64,000 bases of DNA from Bacteroidales bacterium F22 (lineage in GTDB: Bacteria > Bacteroidota > Bacteroidia > Bacteroidales > Bacteroidaceae). Below are positions 4,489-59,779 of this stretch, in pieces. Every line of letters starts with the position of its first letter. The stretch's first letter is position 1. Where the stretch lies: the NCBI GenBank assembly GCA_029541985.1, contig CP095414.1, forward strand, positions 1,054,001 through 1,118,000. The letters run 5' to 3'. The notes under the pieces were generated by a model. That model ran no database searches and was not told where the DNA came from. It saw only the letters and a list, made by a program, of their open reading frames with translations. The translations under genes were made by a program, and so were the position numbers.

Positions 4489-5808
4489 TTAAAATAAATC
4501 TTTGACCAGACGATTATTGAGTTGATCATCTCCACAACGCTGAAACGCCTCGAGTGCTTCCCAATGATTAGCATATAAGTTCTCCGTATCTAATTTGAAA
4601 TTTTCAGAACCCAACCTATTAATCCTATCGAGCATCAAGGAAATAGTGAGTCTGTTGATATCAAATGCTGGCTGATAAGCCACTTTATTATTTTTGGTAT
4701 CTACATACAACTCGTTAATCAAGTCGATCTCTAACAAGAGGTCAAGCACCTTCTTCACCAGTCGTAGAGGAATGCGATGCTGTTCGGATATTTCTTCAGC
4801 TTCATAGGGCGGTTCTTCGTTTTCAAACCGTTTCACGATTAAAGACATGACTAATAAGGTGACAAAATCTTGATAACGGCGAGAAATATTGCGGGTATCT
4901 TTATCGAAAGCAAAGTTGCGAATATTCTGCTGAGCATAAGTCAATTCGACCCCAAATAAGATAATACTCCATGAGAGTTGTAACCAAATCATAAACAACG
5001 GTAAGGCAGCAAATGAACCATAAATGGCATTGTAACGAGATACATATAACTGCAATCCGATATAGATAAACTGGAATATTTGATAAGCAGTACCGATGAG
5101 GATACCCGATATCAGTGCAGGACGAAATTTGACATGAGTATTGGGCATGAAGATATACAATGCAGTAAACATCAGCCAGGTCAATGCATAAGGAATCAAC
5201 CTAAGGAAAAAACGACCGATAGGAGCTAATAACTGAAATTGCTCCATATCACCGAGTACTTGACTCATAAATATAGACAGACCACTAGAGACGACGATAA
5301 GAATCGGCAAGAAGAGAAACATCGAGAAATAATCCGTCACCTTACGATACAACGAGCGAGTACGACGAACATTCCATATATAGTTAAACGCCAATTCGAT
5401 GTTATTTGTCAGCAACGTCACAGACCATAACAAGGCTAGTAAACCTACACCGATAAACAAACCGTTTTTGGTTTGTTGTAAATAGGCATTCGCAAATTTG
5501 ATTAGGATATCTACTGTATCACTAGGTAGAGCGATACTGCTTTTGAGAGAGTCTTCCACCAACCCACTAAGGCCGAAACCACGTGCTACAGCGAACAATA
5601 TTGCCGCAATGGGAACAGCAGCAATCAGTGAACTATAAGTAAGTGCTGAGGCACGAGAACTGGTACGATTAGTCTGATACCGTTTGATACAGAGATAAAG
5701 TATCTTAAGTACCTCATATATAGAAAATCGAGTTTTATTGACTTCACTTTTTTCGATTCTCCATATATCTTCTGTAAGAAATCTTAGAAAGGTGTTAAGT
5801 TTACTCAT
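4489..5808 (-). CDS. YihY/BrkB-family inner-membrane protein with C-terminal winged-helix-like tail
   Basis: The 439-residue protein has the YihY/UPF0761 membrane region at about residues 40-300. It includes ASALTYSSLIAAVPIAAILFAVARGFG, an FNYIWNVRRTRS segment, and SAIYGSFAALPLFMIWLQLSW-type motifs, with about six membrane helices. The C-terminal ~130 residues are soluble; RIPLRLVKKVLDLLLEIDLI looks like a winged-helix-type segment. The name BrkB (tRNA-processing RNase BN) was historically misassigned to this family, and I would not infer RNase activity. It starts only 32 bp after the end of the RNase P RNA on the same strand. Confidence 0.87.
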   Translation of the reverse strand: MSKLNTFLRFLTEDIWRIEKSEVNKTRFSIYEVLKILYLCIKRYQTNRTSSRASALTYSSLIAAVPIAAILFAVARGFGLSGLVEDSLKSSIALPSDTVDILIKFANAYLQQTKNGLFIGVGLLALLWSVTLLTNNIELAFNYIWNVRRTRSLYRKVTDYFSMFLFLPILIVVSSGLSIFMSQVLGDMEQFQLLAPIGRFFLRLIPYALTWLMFTALYIFMPNTHVKFRPALISGILIGTAYQIFQFIYIGLQLYVSRYNAIYGSFAALPLFMIWLQLSWSIILFGVELTYAQQNIRNFAFDKDTRNISRRYQDFVTLLVMSLIVKRFENEEPPYEAEEISEQHRIPLRLVKKVLDLLLEIDLINELYVDTKNNKVAYQPAFDINRLTISLMLDRINRLGSENFKLDTENLYANHWEALEAFQRCGDDQLNNRLVKDLF

Positions 5809-13139: not shown

Positions 13140-13400
13140 TCGTCTATCTTTTAAGATAAAATTGCGGTTGAAGGATAACGTATCAACAAGGTTTAAGAGA
13201 GATAAACAAATTTAAATTAGTCGTTTGTTAACAACATTATAAATTGCTTCCGAAACAATAAACCAATAGACTTTTGGAACCATATTAGCTAAGAAGATTA
13301 AAAAATCAAGCCAAAAAGAACAAGCAATAGAGTAAAAGAGTATATTTAACATCGTATTAGTTAACTCATTGGTGTAATTAACAAATCAACATATTAGATT

Positions 13401-14933
13401 ATGAACAAATCAGTAAGAACAACTTTAGGAGTTTTGGCGATTGTCGGACTCAGCACTATTGTGGCAGGTACGACCGCAGAGTATGTGATGCAAAAAGGAG
13501 ATCAAACCATTGAGAACAATCAACGGTTTAGAATGACTGACACAAATGATTCGTCTAGTTTATTAAAGAAGACTTCTTTTATGGGGGCTTCTGGACAACC
13601 TATAGACTTAACAACTGCAGCCGAGAAATCAATCCATGCTGTAGTACATATAAAATCGACCAAAAATACGACTCGGAGTTCTAGACAGCTGCAAAGTAAT
13701 GATTTGTTTGAGTATTTCTTTGGCCCTCAGCAAGGGGGAAGACAACAGGTTCAAAGTCAACCTCAGATAGGATTTGGATCTGGCGTAATCATCAGTAATG
13801 ATGGCTATATCGTGACCAACAATCATGTAGTTGAAGGAGCTGATGAGGTGAGTGTCACCCTCAATGATAACCGGACATTCCCTGGAAGAATCATTGGGAC
13901 TGACCCAAGCACGGATTTGGCTTTGATTAAGATTGAAGGAAAGAATTTCCCTGTCTTAGCGATTGGTAATAGTGAATCATTGAAAGTTGGAGAGTGGGTT
14001 CTTGCTGTGGGTAACCCATTTAACTTAACCTCGACAGTGACTGCGGGTATAGTCAGTGCTAAAGCACGGTCTTTGGGGGTGTACAATAATGGCATAGAGT
14101 CGTTTATCCAGACAGATGCTGCTATCAACCAAGGAAATAGTGGCGGAGCCCTTGTCAATTCAAGGGGCGAATTGGTTGGTATCAATGCGATTTTAGCATC
14201 TCCGACAGGTGCTTATTCGGGTTATGGTTTTGCTATTCCTACGAGTATCATGACCAAAGTAGTTAGTGATCTGAAAGAATATGGAACGGTACAACGAGCA
14301 GTCCTTGGAATCAGAGGCAGTTCCGTTGGTGGACAATTACTTCCTGAACAACTAAAAGAAAAAGAAGATAAGTTAGGGGTAACCGATGGTATCTTAGTTG
14401 CTGAGGTAATAGATGATGGAGCAGCTAAAGAAGCTGGCATCTTAGTAGATGATGTGATTGTTGGTATTGATGGGATGAAAATAACCAAGATGTCACAGTT
14501 GCAGGAGCAGTTGGCAAAACATAATCCAGGTGATAAAGTGAAGATTAAGCTTGTCAGAGACAAGAAAGATAAAGTGATCGAGGTTACCCTTGAAAACGAA
14601 CAAGGAACGACTGCAGTAGTGAAGAAGGCGGACTTGGAAATTCTTGGAGCAGCATTTCAAGAGTTGTCCATCAATGCCAAACGACAGTTGGGAATCAACT
14701 ATGGACTACAAGTCTCTGGAGTAAGCAGTGGTCGAATGAAAGATGCTGGTATCAGACGCAACTTCATTATCTTGAAAGTAAATGGACATAAAATCGCATC
14801 TACTGATGATTTGACAAATGTATTCAAAGCTGCGAGACGTAGCCCAGATCAAGTCTTATTCATCACGGGAATCATGCCTTCAGGACGGAGATACAATTAT
14901 GCAGTTGATATTTCTGATTCAGTAAAAAAATAA
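13401..14933 (+). CDS. Do/HtrA-family periplasmic serine protease with two PDZ domains
   Basis: The 510-residue protein has an N-terminal membrane/signal segment (residues ~8-25) and a trypsin-like domain. The catalytic triad is His142 (VTNNHVVEG), Asp172 (DPSTDLALIKI) and Ser247 (INQGNSGGALVN). Two PDZ domains follow (about residues 300-400 and 415-505). The FFGPQQGG stretch before the protease core is the usual LA-loop region. DegP/DegQ enzymes degrade or refold misfolded envelope proteins. The gene stands alone, with a 260-bp gap upstream and a terminator-like hairpin downstream. I leave the symbol blank because degP, degQ and degS cannot be separated safely, although two PDZ domains exclude DegS. 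Confidence 0.95.
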   Translation: MNKSVRTTLGVLAIVGLSTIVAGTTAEYVMQKGDQTIENNQRFRMTDTNDSSSLLKKTSFMGASGQPIDLTTAAEKSIHAVVHIKSTKNTTRSSRQLQSNDLFEYFFGPQQGGRQQVQSQPQIGFGSGVIISNDGYIVTNNHVVEGADEVSVTLNDNRTFPGRIIGTDPSTDLALIKIEGKNFPVLAIGNSESLKVGEWVLAVGNPFNLTSTVTAGIVSAKARSLGVYNNGIESFIQTDAAINQGNSGGALVNSRGELVGINAILASPTGAYSGYGFAIPTSIMTKVVSDLKEYGTVQRAVLGIRGSSVGGQLLPEQLKEKEDKLGVTDGILVAEVIDDGAAKEAGILVDDVIVGIDGMKITKMSQLQEQLAKHNPGDKVKIKLVRDKKDKVIEVTLENEQGTTAVVKKADLEILGAAFQELSINAKRQLGINYGLQVSGVSSGRMKDAGIRRNFIILKVNGHKIASTDDLTNVFKAARRSPDQVLFITGIMPSGRRYNYAVDISDSVKK

Positions 14934-16591: not shown

Positions 16592-17905
16592 ATGAATAAA
16601 ACCTCCAACTCGATTTTACTTAACTTCTTTGGAATAGCGATAGTTCTAATGACTCTCGTTTCGTGTTGGGGCTCAGATGGTGATGACCCAAATCCTTATA
16701 AAGGAGCAAACAAAACCGTCATCGGACTCATTTTAGCTGACAACTCGTTAGACACATTTTCAAATCCGGATATCAACGAGATGATTGCTGGTATGGATGA
16801 AAGTTCTGTTGATTGGGATAAGAATAATGTACTCTTGTTTGTTGATAATAAATCTACTGCGCCACTGATTCTTAGGTTGCGCAGAGAGGACGGTAAGAAT
16901 TCGGCAATTATTAGAGATACTGTCTTTGTGTATACAGCGGAAACAATAGCTAATATTCCTGACATTGATTTTTATGAATCTTCATCGACAGAGTCGATGT
17001 GTAAAGATGCCCTAAAACGCATAATCACTGGCTATAGTGCCAAAAGCTATGGCCTCATATTATGGTCGCACGGAGATGGATGGATTCCATCTGATGATTA
17101 CGTTGCCCCTGCAGTTGCCACACGTATATTCGGACAAGATACTGATACAGGTACCTATCCTAGTGTCAAGTGGTTAGAAAATTCGGAGTTGAAGTCTATT
17201 ATTGCAGCAAGTTGTAGTTATATGACTAATAGCGATAAGAAATATGATTTCATCTATGCGGATGCTTGTCAGATGGCAAACAATACCACAGTATATGATT
17301 TCAAAGATTATTGTAACTATTTCATCGGAAGTGTAGCTGAGATACCGGGGACTGGTGGCTATTATAGGACTCAGTTACCGGCTATGTTTGAGACATCTGA
17401 CATTCCGGCTATAGCAGTGGCAGAAGCATATGATGAATATTACAATCGTGACAATCATTGGACTGGCAATGCAGGCGTTCAGCTTTCTGTTATAAAAATG
17501 TCTGAATTGGATAACTTAGCAGCGGTAACAAAATCGTTTATGGAAGTTCCTGAGATTGCGGCTTCGATCGCTTCGCTTGATTGGTCGTCTATAAATCATT
17601 TTGACTGGGGACGTTCGAACGGTACTACTATCTATTATGACTTCAAACAGACTATGGAAGCTGTACTGACCTCAGACCAGTTAGCTGTATGGCAAAAAGC
17701 ACTCGATGCTGCAGTCGTTCTAAACATTGTCCCAGAAACGATTTATTCATCTATTCTTCCTGGGGAATTTGATGCAAATCCTTGTTGTGGACTGGCTGCC
17801 TACTTCCCTAATGATGCTACGTACAAGAAATGGAATACTTATTTCCAAACTTATTCGTGGTATCAAGCTGCTGGAATGAACTATGTTCAGGATGAGATCC
17901 CATAA
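16592..17905 (+). CDS. Clostripain-family (C11) cysteine peptidase lipoprotein
   Basis: The 437-residue protein has a lipobox (MTLVSC, Cys25) and a C11/clostripain core. An early strand KTVIGLILADNSLD is followed by the catalytic His160 in LILWSHGDGW and the catalytic Cys226 in FIYADACQMAN. The spacing between the dyad residues fits the family. C11 enzymes usually cut after Arg or Lys and often self-process. No clear internal Arg/Lys processing linker is evident to me. As a lipoprotein it would act at the outer membrane or cell surface. It stands between the small secreted protein and fabD, with a terminator behind it. Confidence 0.88.
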   Translation: MNKTSNSILLNFFGIAIVLMTLVSCWGSDGDDPNPYKGANKTVIGLILADNSLDTFSNPDINEMIAGMDESSVDWDKNNVLLFVDNKSTAPLILRLRREDGKNSAIIRDTVFVYTAETIANIPDIDFYESSSTESMCKDALKRIITGYSAKSYGLILWSHGDGWIPSDDYVAPAVATRIFGQDTDTGTYPSVKWLENSELKSIIAASCSYMTNSDKKYDFIYADACQMANNTTVYDFKDYCNYFIGSVAEIPGTGGYYRTQLPAMFETSDIPAIAVAEAYDEYYNRDNHWTGNAGVQLSVIKMSELDNLAAVTKSFMEVPEIAASIASLDWSSINHFDWGRSNGTTIYYDFKQTMEAVLTSDQLAVWQKALDAAVVLNIVPETIYSSILPGEFDANPCCGLAAYFPNDATYKKWNTYFQTYSWYQAAGMNYVQDEIP

Positions 17906-54973: not shown

Positions 54974-54981
54974 TATATTTG
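54974..54981 (+). promoter_or_regulatory. -7 element of the 60-residue membrane protein gene
   Basis: TATATTTG lies 43 bp before the ATG at 55025 and matches TAnnTTTG. Confidence 0.5.
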
Positions 54982-55024: not shown

Positions 55025-55207
55025 ATGAAAAAATTTCTATTCTATTTATACTATATAGTGACAGGCCTTTTAGTAATGTTCATTGTACTAGCAGCATGGT
55101 ACCACGATTACAGAGTACTAGAATACGCTAAGTTCTTCACCCCTCTATTCTTTGTATGGTGGGCATTGTTATATTTCTTATACATCAGAAAATATAGACG
55201 TAAATAA
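55025..55207 (+). CDS. 60-residue two-helix membrane protein
   Basis: The ATG at 55025 is preferred, because the longer frame would begin inside the -7 element. The product starts MKKFLFYLYYIVTGLLVMFIVLAAW (helix 1), has a short polar turn (YHDYRVLEYAK), and ends FFTPLFFVWWALLYFLYIRKYRRK (helix 2 plus basic tail). I do not recognise a family. In size and layout it resembles the 58-residue protein at 56235, although the sequences are not clearly related. Each is followed at once by a copy of the helicase gene end. An immunity-protein-like role is possible but is inference. Confidence 0.65.
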   Translation: MKKFLFYLYYIVTGLLVMFIVLAAWYHDYRVLEYAKFFTPLFFVWWALLYFLYIRKYRRK

Positions 55208-55231
55208 TTACGTAGTCAATCATAACCTATT

Positions 55232-55406
55232 TTTCACCCAACATCCCCCAAGTCACTCGCAAAGCTCCAAAATGAAGACGGCATAGGCGTAGCCAATTTC
55301 CAACGAATCGTCATCGGTTTGGAACCCTGATAACTAACCAAACTAACCAATCCCAGATACACATAACTCTGAGTCAACAACTTATCCTCAGTCGTTTTGG
55401 CTTGTT
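55232..55406 (-). pseudogene. Detached copy of the helicase gene 3' end (57 codons)
   Basis: This segment matches 56526-56700, the last part of the PLD-DEAD-DUF3427 helicase gene, over about 175 bp with 11 mismatches (about 94% identity), in the same orientation. In the same frame it still encodes QAKTTEDKLLTQSYVYLGLV and on to the identical ending SFASDLGDVG and stop. Only three amino-acid changes are seen (Ser to Leu, His to Tyr, Met to Thr). Homology ends abruptly at 55407. It has no start codon and no upstream part of the gene. It marks a duplication or displacement of the gene end by the cassette between the copies. Confidence 0.88.
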
Positions 55407-55500
55407 TTCGAATATTCTGTCAAACTATTATGAAAAAGAATACCATCATTTACTATGATTAAGATATACTAGCTACTGTTTAATCGTTTCTCGAAATTAA

Positions 55501-55522
55501 ATTTTTCTTATGTAAGAAAAAT
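55501..55522. repeat. 10-2-10 perfect palindrome upstream of the cassette lipoprotein
   Basis: ATTTTTCTTA, TG and TAAGAAAAAT form a perfect palindrome with a 2-base centre, too short a loop for a normal hairpin terminator. It lies 51 bp before the -7 element of the lipoprotein gene, so it could be an operator. Confidence 0.5.
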
Positions 55523-55572
55523 AATTTAATAAATAAACACATTTTAAACCTATAAATTTGATATATATATTA

Positions 55573-55580
55573 TACATTTG
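55573..55580 (+). promoter_or_regulatory. -7 element of the cassette lipoprotein gene
   Basis: TACATTTG lies 22 bp before the ATG at 55603 and matches TAnnTTTG. No clear -33 element is visible. Confidence 0.55.
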
Positions 55581-55602
55581 TGTTAAATAAATACATAATA
55601 AT

Positions 55603-56235
55603 ATGATAAAACTAAAGAATTGTGCTTATTTATTATTTATCTTTTCTATCTTTATTGTTTCATGTGAAAAAGATGAAGTTGAAGAATTACCCAATGCTCA
55701 AGCTTATATAACAGAAATGAGTATTGAAAGTATTCCAATAACAAGAAGTAGTACATATGGTAATGCACAAGAAGCAAATAGAGTAACATTCTATGAATTC
55801 ATGTCAGATACCAATTACAGTTATGATTTTATCACTTACTCTGAGGATGAATTTGGAGTTGATATAGATCAGGATGGAATAGTTGACATTAAAATGACAC
55901 AGAAAGATAGTTTAGTTACAGCAACAATGGATAATTACATGTACACTTTGAAAATAATAAAGACCAAGGTTAATGGAAAAATTAATTTTTCCATTGAAAA
56001 CGTAGAAGATGACCAAATAACTAGACTTGCTAGGCCTAAACCATATTATATACACAAATCATGGTTTCAATGCGTAACTGACTTGATAACGGAACCACAT
56101 ATTGCTGGTGTTACAGGTGTAATCACTCGCTGGATTCCAACTATAGCTGTTAGCGTTGCAGCTGCGGCATCAGTAATTTGCTTAGATTCAAGAATGCGAT
56201 GGGACACAACAAATCATAATCCAGCTAATAACTAA
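55603..56235 (+). CDS. Cassette lipoprotein with Ca-loop-like motif and Gly/Ala-rich hydrophobic C-terminus
   Basis: The 210-residue protein has a lipoprotein signal (MIKLKNCAYLLFIFSIFIVSC, Cys21). A polar region contains VDIDQDGIVDI, which fits the DxDxDGxxD calcium-loop pattern of dockerin/thrombospondin repeats. The C-terminal ~60 residues change character: SWFQCVTDLITEP is followed by AGVTGVITRWIPTIAVSVAAAASVICLD, a Gly/Ala/Val-rich hydrophobic stretch with a Cys on each side, and a polar tail. I do not recognise the family. Its stop overlaps the next gene's ATG (TAATG), so it is coupled to a 58-residue two-helix membrane protein. That arrangement, a membrane-active-looking C-terminus plus a tiny membrane partner, is reminiscent of bacteriocin/immunity pairs. 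This is inference. Confidence 0.7.
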   Translation: MIKLKNCAYLLFIFSIFIVSCEKDEVEELPNAQAYITEMSIESIPITRSSTYGNAQEANRVTFYEFMSDTNYSYDFITYSEDEFGVDIDQDGIVDIKMTQKDSLVTATMDNYMYTLKIIKTKVNGKINFSIENVEDDQITRLARPKPYYIHKSWFQCVTDLITEPHIAGVTGVITRWIPTIAVSVAAAASVICLDSRMRWDTTNHNPANN

Positions 56236-56411
56236 TGAAAAAAAAATATATAGAAAGATTTAAAAATATTTATTTAATAATTATTTTACTTGCTCTATAC
56301 TACGTATATAGCAACAATATAGTAGAGCATCATAAGGTTTTATTCCTCTTTCTATATGGGATAGTCGTTTGTGGAGGTTTTTCCTTAATAGATTGGTATA
56401 AGAAGAAATAG
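56235..56411 (+). CDS. 58-residue two-helix membrane protein, coupled to the cassette lipoprotein
   Basis: The ATG at 56235 overlaps the preceding stop codon (TAATG). The product, MKKKYIERFKNIYLIIILLA followed by LYYVYSNNIVEHHKVLFLFL and YGIVVCGGFSLIDWYKKK, has a basic N-terminus, two membrane helices (about residues 11-28 and 35-53), a short polar turn with EHH, and a basic end. No family is recognised. Size, topology and tight coupling to the upstream gene fit a dedicated partner such as an immunity protein. The gene ends 117 bp before the end of the helicase gene on the other strand. Confidence 0.7.
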   Translation: MKKKYIERFKNIYLIIILLALYYVYSNNIVEHHKVLFLFLYGIVVCGGFSLIDWYKKK

Positions 56412-56525
56412 ATCATTATGTTATTTTTTATAAACATCTTACGTTCTACACTCTAGTGGAATATAAAAAGAAAGGGAAAAACACTGCGTTCACGACATCA
56501 ACAGCAAGTTGTAACAAATTTCATC

Positions 56526-56700
56526 TTTCACCCAACATCACCCAAATCACTCGCAAAGCTCCAGAATGAAGACGGCATAGGCATAGCCAATTTCCAACGA
56601 ATCGTCATCGGTTTAGAACCCTGATGACTAACCAAACTAACCAACCCCAGATACACATAACTCTGCGTCAACGACTTATCTTCAGTCGTTTTGGCCTGTT
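56526..56700 (-). repeat. Intact copy of the duplicated helicase gene end
   Basis: This is the partner of the segment at 55232-55406. It lies at a constant 1294-bp offset, in the same orientation, with 11 mismatches in about 175 bp. It contains the true C-terminus and stop of the helicase gene. Confidence 0.88.
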
Positions 56701-59700
56701 CACGAACAAACAATAACGTTTTGAAAGTCCCCTTGATATAACGTTGTCCGGTAGGCGTATCAGGCGACACCTTATTCTGTGTCTCCCAATCAAACAACGT
56801 ATCCGTGACCGCCATATCATTATAATTCGTGGTAGAACCAGCCACACGATCCTTAATCAAATCCACAAATAAAGCTTCCACTTTTTCCTGCTTATTCACT
56901 TCAACCCCCTCACGACCCGGACTCTTCCTGGCCATCGTAGAAGTACCCACAGCCGCTTTGATTTGTTCCCGCGTATAACGTCCATGCACCATCAAAGGGA
57001 AAGCAGCATTCGGCTTCTCAGCAGAACCGATTTCATAAGATTCCGTCTTTTGAAGCAACACACCAAGCACCATCAGACACTCCTGAATAAACACCCGATA
57101 GGACGAAAGCACTTGTAAGAACGACCGGTAAGAAGTATATTTAGGACGCTCAGCATCCCCCGCATACAAGTCATAATAGAACATGACACACAAGCGTTCC
57201 ACCATTTCCTCAGACACCTCCTCCGGCTTCCTTCTCATCCGTTCAAGAATAAAATCAGCCGAGGCCAAACGATACAAGAAATCAAAATACGAACTAGAAT
57301 CAGTCACACTCCAAGCAGTAGCCACCGTCTTCTTAAACCGCTCCATCAACTTCGCCTCCTCATCAGATAAGTCACTAGACAACTGAAAACCCACAGGCGC
57401 CTCCGCAGCCCCCTCTTGGACAAGATCAGTCACTCCCTCTGACCATGTCATACGCTTATAGAACGTACGAATCGGCACCTTATGAATGCTCAGGAAATTA
57501 GCTAAAGTAAACGGCATATCATAATCTTGAGGGAAACGATGAAGCAACTGCTTCAAGCCCCTGAGATTAAACTGACGAGTTGCCCGACTAATATTATCAA
57601 GAATATACTCCCGCGCTTTCGGTTCCAACGTGATGCTACACCCGAAAGGCATATGCGGAAAATTATACTCCAATTCCTCCTTCTCACTCATACTCGTACG
57701 ACCAATCAGCGCCCGTACCCGATCCGTATAATTAAATTCCGCTCGCGCCTGACCTACAAAATCCAGTACCGTAACAAAATCCTTTCCCTCAGCCTTACGC
57801 AAACCACGTCCCAACTGCTGTAAATAAATGGTCAAACTCTCCGTAGGACGCAGAAAGAGCACCGTATCCACATTAGGAATATCGACCCCCTCATTGAAAA
57901 TATCCACCACAAACAAGTAATTGATAAGCCCCTCATTGAGCCGTTTGATAAGCCCTCGACGATTCTTAAGCGTATAATCATTACTCACTAAATAGTCAGA
58001 CTTGAGCCCAGCCAACTGAAATTTGGCCGACATATATCGAGCATGATCCCGATTGACACAAAAACAAATCGCCCGCGCCTGATGCGCATCAGGCAAATAC
58101 CGCTGCATAGCATCCAACACCACCCCAGTACGGCGATCATTCTCGGTATATACCTTAGTCAATTCACACGCATCATACCGACCGCCACTCCATTTCACAG
58201 TCCTCAAATCCGTACTATCCGTCACTCCGAAATACTTAAACGGACTCAGTAAGCGATTATTCAGCGCATCAGCCAATCGAATCTCAGCACTAATCTGATT
58301 TCCAAAGAACTGCGTAATAGACCCATTTCGATAATCATCAGCCCGTTCAGGCGTAGCCGTCATACCAAGTAAAATATCCGGTTGAAAATACGTAAGCAAA
58401 GGCTGATACGTCTTCGCCATCACATGATGAGCCTCATCGATAACAATAAAATCATAATAATCAGCAGCCGGCAACCAACTCCCATTTTTGAAACGACTAT
58501 ATAAGGTATCCTTCGAAGCAAACAGATGCCGCATATCCTCAGGCACCGACACATCCGAATGCCAAACAGCCCCAAAATTCTCATCCCGAAGCACAGCCCG
58601 GAACGTATCCAACGCCTGATTCAGAATCTCCTGACGATGCGCCACGAATAGCAAATTAGCCTGAGGATGAATGGCCAGATACCGTTTGAAATCAAAAGCA
58701 GAAATCACCGTCTTACCCGTACCCGTAGCCGCCACCAGTAAATTACGATGCTCCCCATGAACAGCCCTATCCATAGCCAATTTTTCCAGGATCTCCTCCT
58801 GATACCCCTTAGCCCGCATCAAGTCAAGGCGATCAAAATCAAGCACTTGCGACGCCTCAATATCTCCCAAAGCGATACGTAAACGCCGGTCATCTCGTCC
58901 AAGTACAAACGGCTCAAACCCATCACTTCGCCAATACAATTCGAAACGATTCATCACCTTCTTAGTGATATGAGGCAATTCCACCTCTGTTATTTTCATA
59001 TTCCATTCCAAACCATCCGTCAGCGCCTTACGAGAAATATTAGAAGAACCAATATAACACGTATGATGCCCCCCAGCCCGTTTGAAAAGATACGTCTTGG
59101 CATGCAAACTCTCCTGATTCTGATTATACGAGATACGAATCTCCGTATTCGGAAGACCGGCAAGCCGTTTGATAGCCTTGTAATCCGTATTCTGTACATA
59201 CGTGGAAGTCAAGATACGGAGCGATTTCCCACTATGGGTAAACTTCTCCAGCGCAGGATAAAGCAGCGCCACCCCCTGTGTCTTGATAAACGACACAAGC
59301 AAGCAAATCTCATCCGCACTCTGAATCTCACGAAGCAATTCACTCTCCATACTCAATTCCTGATGCCCCCCCGTAAAGAGCGTACAATCCCGCAAGCCCG
59401 TCACAGGACGAATCTGTTCCAAATAATGCGCATAATCAGAAGTATCCAATTGGGACTTATCCAGCACAGAACTCAGCACATAAACTGGATTTTGGAGTAA
59501 ATCCTTCTTCCCAGTGTCCTGCGGAAAACTATGCATCAATAGCTGAATAATCTCATTAACCAGACGCACCCCAGCAGGAATTTCATCTACATCATCAATC
59601 TCCGAAAGTGCCTTATCCAAGACCTTCTTCACATACTGAGATAAATGCGTCTTTGTTTCTTCTAACGTGAGACTATGCGTAGCAATGTAATATTGACTAT

Positions 59701-59779
59701 CAGCACAACTTCTTAATTCATCTTGTATAGCCTGATTGATAAGGTCGTCATAGAGTCCAGGTGCGAGGTACATAAGCAA
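56528..59779 (-). CDS. PLD-nuclease-like / DEAD-DEAH helicase / DUF3427 protein
   Basis: The 1083-residue protein has three parts. The N-terminal phospholipase-D-like domain (about residues 130-290) contains SLHAKTYLFKR and YIGSSNISRKAL. An SF2 helicase core follows, with Walker A LLVAATGTGKTVISAF (near residue 350), VIDEAHHVMAKT, GMTATPERAD and QQLGRGLRKAEGKDFVTVLDFVG. The C-terminal DUF3427 region runs to ...SFASDLGDVG. Proteins of this architecture are predicted to be repair or anti-mobile-element nuclease-helicases; direct evidence is sparse. Lines that I counted by hand in this gene are near 48-55% G+C against about 32% in the adjacent cassette, so it may have a different origin. Its 3' end is duplicated 1.3 kb away. 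Confidence 0.9.
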   Translation of the reverse strand: MLMYLAPGLYDDLINQAIQDELRSCADSQYYIATHSLTLEETKTHLSQYVKKVLDKALSEIDDVDEIPAGVRLVNEIIQLLMHSFPQDTGKKDLLQNPVYVLSSVLDKSQLDTSDYAHYLEQIRPVTGLRDCTLFTGGHQELSMESELLREIQSADEICLLVSFIKTQGVALLYPALEKFTHSGKSLRILTSTYVQNTDYKAIKRLAGLPNTEIRISYNQNQESLHAKTYLFKRAGGHHTCYIGSSNISRKALTDGLEWNMKITEVELPHITKKVMNRFELYWRSDGFEPFVLGRDDRRLRIALGDIEASQVLDFDRLDLMRAKGYQEEILEKLAMDRAVHGEHRNLLVAATGTGKTVISAFDFKRYLAIHPQANLLFVAHRQEILNQALDTFRAVLRDENFGAVWHSDVSVPEDMRHLFASKDTLYSRFKNGSWLPAADYYDFIVIDEAHHVMAKTYQPLLTYFQPDILLGMTATPERADDYRNGSITQFFGNQISAEIRLADALNNRLLSPFKYFGVTDSTDLRTVKWSGGRYDACELTKVYTENDRRTGVVLDAMQRYLPDAHQARAICFCVNRDHARYMSAKFQLAGLKSDYLVSNDYTLKNRRGLIKRLNEGLINYLFVVDIFNEGVDIPNVDTVLFLRPTESLTIYLQQLGRGLRKAEGKDFVTVLDFVGQARAEFNYTDRVRALIGRTSMSEKEELEYNFPHMPFGCSITLEPKAREYILDNISRATRQFNLRGLKQLLHRFPQDYDMPFTLANFLSIHKVPIRTFYKRMTWSEGVTDLVQEGAAEAPVGFQLSSDLSDEEAKLMERFKKTVATAWSVTDSSSYFDFLYRLASADFILERMRRKPEEVSEEMVERLCVMFYYDLYAGDAERPKYTSYRSFLQVLSSYRVFIQECLMVLGVLLQKTESYEIGSAEKPNAAFPLMVHGRYTREQIKAAVGTSTMARKSPGREGVEVNKQEKVEALFVDLIKDRVAGSTTNYNDMAVTDTLFDWETQNKVSPDTPTGQRYIKGTFKTLLFVREQAKTTEDKSLTQSYVYLGLVSLVSHQGSKPMTIRWKLAMPMPSSFWSFASDLGDVG

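Follow-up and report, generated by a model that had tools for sequence, protein, structure and literature searches.

Insertion with long target duplication has been described for restriction-modification genes that lack a transposase and lie between long direct repeats derived from their target, with relatives that retain one target copy and lack the gene block (Nobusato et al. 2000, as cited in PMC1643837, PMC3031569 and PMC4978471). The minimal mobile elements of Neisseria, as described in PMC3082526, are small alternative cassettes at a fixed site that recombine homologously through conserved flanks. In Campylobacter, circles of cfr(C) cargo plus a shared ordinary gene have been detected, and these reintegrate by homologous recombination (PMC10770853). 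In this study, we analyzed a 64,000-nucleotide stretch of the genome of Bacteroidales bacterium F22 (family Bacteroidaceae; assembly GCA_029541985.1, contig CP095414.1, positions 1,054,001 to 1,118,000), hereafter the window, in which a pair of small genes for a lipoprotein and a membrane protein lies between two diverged copies of a 3′ gene end, that of a SauUSI-like restriction helicase. We propose, with a probability of roughly one in two, that an allele-derived cassette was inserted here by means of its homologous helicase end, that the older end was left behind as a stub, and that the cargo acts as a weapon against other bacteria. The features of the locus, in window coordinates, are as follows; G153 and G174 are other genomes described below, and 2-TM denotes two transmembrane segments.

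55025–55207, plus strand: gene for a lone 60-residue 2-TM membrane protein, a candidate orphan immunity gene (open reading frame and hydropathy), about 27 bp from the stop codon of the stub
55229–55412, minus strand: stub, comprising the detached last 58 codons and the stop codon of a SauUSI-like helicase gene, 92.4% identical to 56523–56706
55413–55602, no strand: AT-rich spacer with promoter-like motifs TAAATTTG at 55553 and TACATTTG at 55573 (motif search)
55603–56235, plus strand: gene for a 210-residue lipoprotein, a candidate protease-activated antibacterial toxin precursor (lipobox, xTR sites, homologue in G153)
56235–56411, plus strand: gene for a 58-residue 2-TM membrane protein, a candidate cognate immunity protein; it overlaps the lipoprotein stop codon, in the same order as in G153 and G174
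56523–56706, minus strand: attached repeat copy, forming the 3′ terminus of the complete helicase gene (repeat comparison)
56528–59779, minus strand: SauUSI-like gene with PLD, DEAD/ResIII helicase and DUF3427 parts, a predicted type IV (modification-dependent) restriction enzyme (Pfam, PADLOC and PDB)

The initial annotation had reported direct repeats of 175 bp with 11 mismatches (55232–55406 and 56526–56700), and we recovered both copies at exactly these positions. Extended without gaps, the repeat comprises 184 bp with 14 mismatches; the two copies match by BLAST with an E value of 2e-73, and the single-contig genome of 2.89 Mb has the repeat at this one locus only. Read from the minus strand, both encode, as had been stated, the same C-terminus followed by the stop codon. 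Homology runs from a few bases past the helicase stop codon to near helicase codon 1023, and the sequence outside the repeat is completely different on the two sides. The reading frame of the stub has about 60 open codons without a frameshift and is truncated upstream. The small-gene units on the plus strand point convergently at the helicase ends. The AT-rich lipoprotein/membrane protein segment between the copies and the tiny membrane protein gene outside the stub were likewise borne out by open reading frames, GC content and hydropathy: the segment at 55413–56522 has a GC content of 28% versus 46% in the helicase (0.30 versus 0.46 for the cargo). A promoter-like motif of the Bacteroidetes type TAnnTTTG is found at both units (54974; 55553/55573), with TATATTTG at 54974 ahead of the lone membrane protein gene. 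When 375 kb of fetched loci were compared with themselves for same-strand pairs of at least 80 bp spaced 0.5–6 kb apart, only ten pairs emerged, four of them at loci discussed here. Such repeats are therefore not everywhere, with the proviso that the loci were not randomly chosen.

The host gene is predicted to encode a SauUSI-like type IV restriction enzyme. Its Pfam domains are PLDc_2, ResIII/DEAD, Helicase_C and DUF3427, and it scores 607 bits against the PADLOC type IV restriction model mREase_IV. The best solved relative is PDB 7clg (953 residues, E 1.7e-76), which we take to be SauUSI. The window helicase has the same order of PLD, helicase and C-terminal domains as SauUSI-type enzymes and strong sequence similarity to them; this likeness concerns the gene into which the cassette would have been inserted, not the cassette itself, and the activity is a prediction. 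In many members of the family, a co-directional NUDIX gene comes after the helicase, and besides that of the window, no lipoprotein/membrane protein pair was found at the 3′ end of the other intact family helicases examined.

A codon comparison of the two window copies gave nine synonymous and four nonsynonymous differences, where 2.7–3.9 synonymous differences would be expected if both copies were neutral (simulated P 0.0003–0.004). The stub and the attached end in G174 differ by 8.5 synonymous and 4.5 nonsynonymous changes (P 0.0005–0.003 if both are neutral). Under a stricter null model, in which the stub alone drifts and the complete gene is constrained, P is 0.0075–0.059 for the window and 0.0006–0.022 for the window and G174 combined. 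Because the differences are mainly synonymous, the ends appear to come from two coding alleles; most likely, they represent different helicase alleles, and the stub diverged while it was in a working gene. The synonymous bias probably argues for two alleles, with the changes being few and the window alone not decisive. Mostly synonymous divergence therefore favors import or exchange over local duplication and drift.

A second case was found in G174, which belongs to another genus of the same family. Here, an unrelated lipoprotein gene occupies the equivalent position, with order and orientation as in the window:

L067:4048–4608: lipoprotein gene
L067:4621–4812: gene for a 63-residue 2-TM protein, after the lipoprotein gene
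L067:4992–5116: detached helicase end, after the 2-TM gene

The G174 stub (126 bp) is 88.9% identical to the helicase end of its own genome, 5 kb away. On either side of the unit stands a copy of a sequence that we call R (95 bp, 88% identity; L067:3273–3367 and 5115–5209); at the orthologous site, G558 has just one R and lacks the unit. R belongs to a family of GTGAGGGATG-rich dispersed intergenic repeats with several copies in G174 and G558. Another genome, G160, carries the G174-type unit at 99% identity, with its lipoprotein gene split by an insert of about 12 kb. This insert (L097:6567–6768 to L068:5680; G160:C30:196566–208679) has the same 406-residue transposase-like gene at each end. 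A 7-bp overlap at its target suggests a target duplication, and the insert, which interrupts a candidate toxin gene, resembles a composite transposon. G174 and G160 have both flanks (95.6–96.4% identity) and the stub in common; between the stub and the right flank lie the helicase and restriction-like genes in G174 and an MZA-like system in G160. The latter (L177:1–7240 and L068:7875–13996) includes a cytosine methylase and MzaB- and MzaE-like proteins and occupies the slot of the G174 helicase. Since different defense genes stand between the same flanks, defense genes turn over there and the stub persists, in agreement with the suggestion of the initial annotation that the helicase end in the window may be a turnover site for defense or competition genes. 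An order-wide search with a helicase C-terminus profile revealed no further clear stubs beyond G000; short matches in G725 and G601 were rejected as weak, and one in G831 lies at a contig edge.

A third pair does not involve a helicase. G153 encodes a lipoprotein distantly homologous to that of the window (27–28% identity, E 1.6e-12), followed by a gene for a 63-residue 2-TM protein. The pair lies between two 140-bp copies, 88.6% identical, of a tRNA-Arg/nhaD-like intergenic region, and this sequence occurs at these two places only within that genome. Four congeners of G153 have tRNA-Arg, one recognizable homologous intergenic region and nhaD with no insert, which is a clear empty site. Two further loci with duplicated gene pieces came to light. 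In G216 (L069:4153–7411; G216:C1:2504152–2507410), an RloA/RloB-like pair (AbiL-like in PADLOC) directly upstream of a SauUSI-like helicase lies between direct repeats of 122 bp (97% identity) that correspond to the 3′ end of the gene upstream, which encodes 350 residues. The pair may be a further insertion of this type; a single-copy state of the duplicated gene end was not found, the gene being detected only in G216. The DUF3427 helicase gene of Bacillus solitudinis has an internal stretch of 306 bp that recurs, at 97% identity, about 2.2 kb past the gene (L062:10336–10641 and 13291–13595); the second copy has a changed frame and is therefore a pseudogene fragment.

In layout, the cargo would suit a bacteriocin precursor activated by a C11 protease, together with its immunity protein. 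BcpT is a 499-residue precursor with a signal peptidase II (SPII) signal that is cut after LTR by C11 proteases (doripains) and thereby becomes active; its immunity protein, BcpI, is a small lipoprotein (PMC9308784). Fab1 is activated by fragipain cleavage after Arg, giving an active fragment of 28 kDa (PMC8406203). In both systems, the immunity gene shares an operon with the toxin gene or follows it directly, and RFab1 also occurs without the toxin (PMC8406203, PMC9308784). The window precursor likewise has an SPII lipobox (Cys21) and xTR sites (at Arg48, Arg141 and Arg176), an adjacent small membrane protein gene and, in the same genome, a C11 protease:

16592–17905, plus strand: gene for a C11 (clostripain-family) protease with a lipobox-like signal, outside the cassette, a possible activating protease (PF03415, E 3.6e-34; the sole PF03415 match in the genome)

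The three precursors differ from BcpT and Fab1 in being short (186–214 residues) and without a family match, and the immunity candidates are 2-TM proteins. All three lipoproteins (window, G174 and G153) have a lipobox and a hydrophobic C-terminal segment with at least two cysteines; in the window protein, this segment includes Cys157 and Cys193. Thr-Arg (TR) dipeptides number seven in the three sequences versus 1.77 in shuffles (P 0.00065), and in each protein one TR lies 6–16 residues ahead of the first C-terminal cysteine. On the grounds of the shared cargo architecture, the TR sites, the C11 protease in the window and the BcpT and Fab1 precedents, we infer that the window pair encodes a pre-toxin with a cognate immunity protein, the lone 2-TM gene being an orphan immunity gene. 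A lipoprotein remnant was sought upstream of the lone gene and none was found. The lone membrane protein, the lipoprotein and the 58-residue membrane protein do not reach the cut-off of any family in Pfam, NCBIfam and PADLOC. Searches of plasmid collections, phage collections and viral contigs gave no relatives of the lipoproteins. The single viral match (L102) was discarded as a chance match within a phage gene, and the matches in G186 and G272 fall inside long unrelated open reading frames. An order-wide profile built from the two homologous lipoproteins (window and G153) retrieved mostly signal-peptide matches, and the same-strand neighbors of a few of these yielded nothing to build on.

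We envisage the following course of events. A cassette of about 1.3 kb with the lipoprotein and small membrane protein genes would have entered the helicase 3′ end together with its own copy of the gene end, derived from another allele, and the older helicase end would have stayed behind as the stub. Integration may have been recombination across the approximately 180 bp of common helicase end. A single crossover with circular DNA made up of cargo and helicase end would yield the repeat-cargo-repeat arrangement directly; import with homology on one side and an illegitimate second junction would likewise do so, and both routes would require host recombination only. The lipoprotein would be a surface pre-toxin from which a C11 protease, cutting after xTR, frees a membrane-active peptide at the C-terminal end. 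The 2-TM protein would confer immunity, and the lone 2-TM gene would be orphan immunity from an earlier cassette. We saw neither a transposase or integrase gene nor terminal inverted repeats at the cassette, and the two genes between the repeats gave no recombinase match. The initial annotation had likened the locus to elements that replace the 3′ end of a target gene; this parallel found no support, no integrase or site-specific element of that kind being found. Its wider idea, that blocks of small gene(s) plus helicase end are modules exchanged at this gene end, held in part. It gains from the second, non-homologous lipoprotein/membrane protein cargo beside a detached end in G174, from the coding-allele-like copies and from the lack of a cassette at the single 3′ ends of the other intact family helicases examined, but G153 indicates that the process is not specific to helicase ends.

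The same geometry could arise with no donor allele if a block of small gene(s) and helicase end were duplicated in tandem, or inserted from the same chromosome with a long target duplication, and the stub then drifted. The detached copy is indeed not in a complete gene, and there is a precedent in the restriction-modification genes of Helicobacter (Nobusato et al. 2000, as cited in PMC1643837 and PMC3031569). We consider such an origin unlikely, as the differences are too synonymous (P 0.0003–0.004 per genome with both copies drifting; 0.0006–0.022 combined with the stub only) and the stub has acquired no indel or premature stop. Furthermore, the sequence beyond the repeat is wholly different, and the block was therefore not copied as a whole. 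Replacement of the whole gene is a possible, if doubtful, explanation: a foreign block of lipoprotein, membrane protein and complete helicase genes would have displaced the resident helicase, so that the helicase itself moved and the stub is the old tail. The retention of the stub in G174 beside a helicase and in G160 beside the MZA-like system instead fits this scenario, as do the different neighbor genes of the G018 helicase (87% identical at the N-terminus) and the survival of a helicase fragment next to the complete gene in Bacillus solitudinis. It explains the helicase cases equally as well as cassette insertion does, but fails for G153, where the pair lies within duplicated intergenic sequence with no helicase and cassettes can therefore insert alone. 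As for the cargo, the small genes may be ordinary lipoprotein and membrane protein genes with, for example, surface or stress functions, whose position by the repeat is incidental. The window cargo has no homology to a characterized toxin family above the curated cut-offs of Pfam and NCBIfam, and its structure model is of low confidence. We regard this as a serious possibility with somewhat less than an even chance, given that the three pairs are alike in gene order, size, lipobox, enriched TR and Cys-containing hydrophobic C-terminus, and that all three lie between duplicated flanks.

Several observations count against the insertion of an allele-derived cassette with a weapon as cargo. Each helicase case offers only 13 differences, and for the window alone P reaches 0.059 under strong transition bias, so that the model of a single relaxed copy is not clearly rejected. 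The cassette-free state of the window locus was not seen in a comparison limited to genomes of other genera, none of them close enough for synteny of the neighboring PUL genes of the window to be used. Sequence R in G174 is a member of a dispersed repeat family. The window and G174 lipoproteins have no detectable homology, so that architecture is the basis on which they are grouped together as cargo. The xTR test was post hoc, made once the motif had been noticed, and the AlphaFold model of the lipoprotein (mean predicted local distance difference test score 42) is unusable and too poor for a structure search.

With the insertion of an allele-derived cassette as the preferred reading, the locus can be placed among the described systems. 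Judged by sequence, the product matches the known type of insertion with long target duplication. Direct repeats of the target flank the insert in each case (184 bp in the window, 140 bp in G153 and, for the dispersed R, 95 bp in G174), relatives of G153 and G174 have a single target copy without the insert, and there is a tie to defense genes. The differing points are the copies, which have diverged (75–92% identity) in a coding pattern that points to two alleles, and the weapon-like cargo, a candidate toxin/immunity pair rather than a restriction-modification system. The minimal mobile elements of Neisseria likewise use flanking homology; in contrast, the window keeps the old gene end as a stub, and a duplicated flanking gene end is absent from the description cited here. 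Circles such as those of cfr(C) would yield a product like the repeat-cargo-repeat arrangement of the window, but carry other cargo, and the circle was detected there and is only proposed here.

Toxin/immunity and defense genes turn over fast among bacteria, often without a visible mobile element. It is a speculative and rather improbable extension of our findings that Bacteroidales harbor a family-wide set of integrase-free weapon cassettes: xTR-processed lipoprotein toxin/2-TM immunity pairs that would move with a copy of their last flank, integrate by homology, and leave diverged flanks and orphan immunity genes behind. Diverged duplicate flanks would be a sequence signature by which transposase-free moves can be recognized, dated and counted. 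The three pairs described here have no Pfam or NCBIfam family above cut-off, and such flanks would also flag weapon genes that have so far escaped description.

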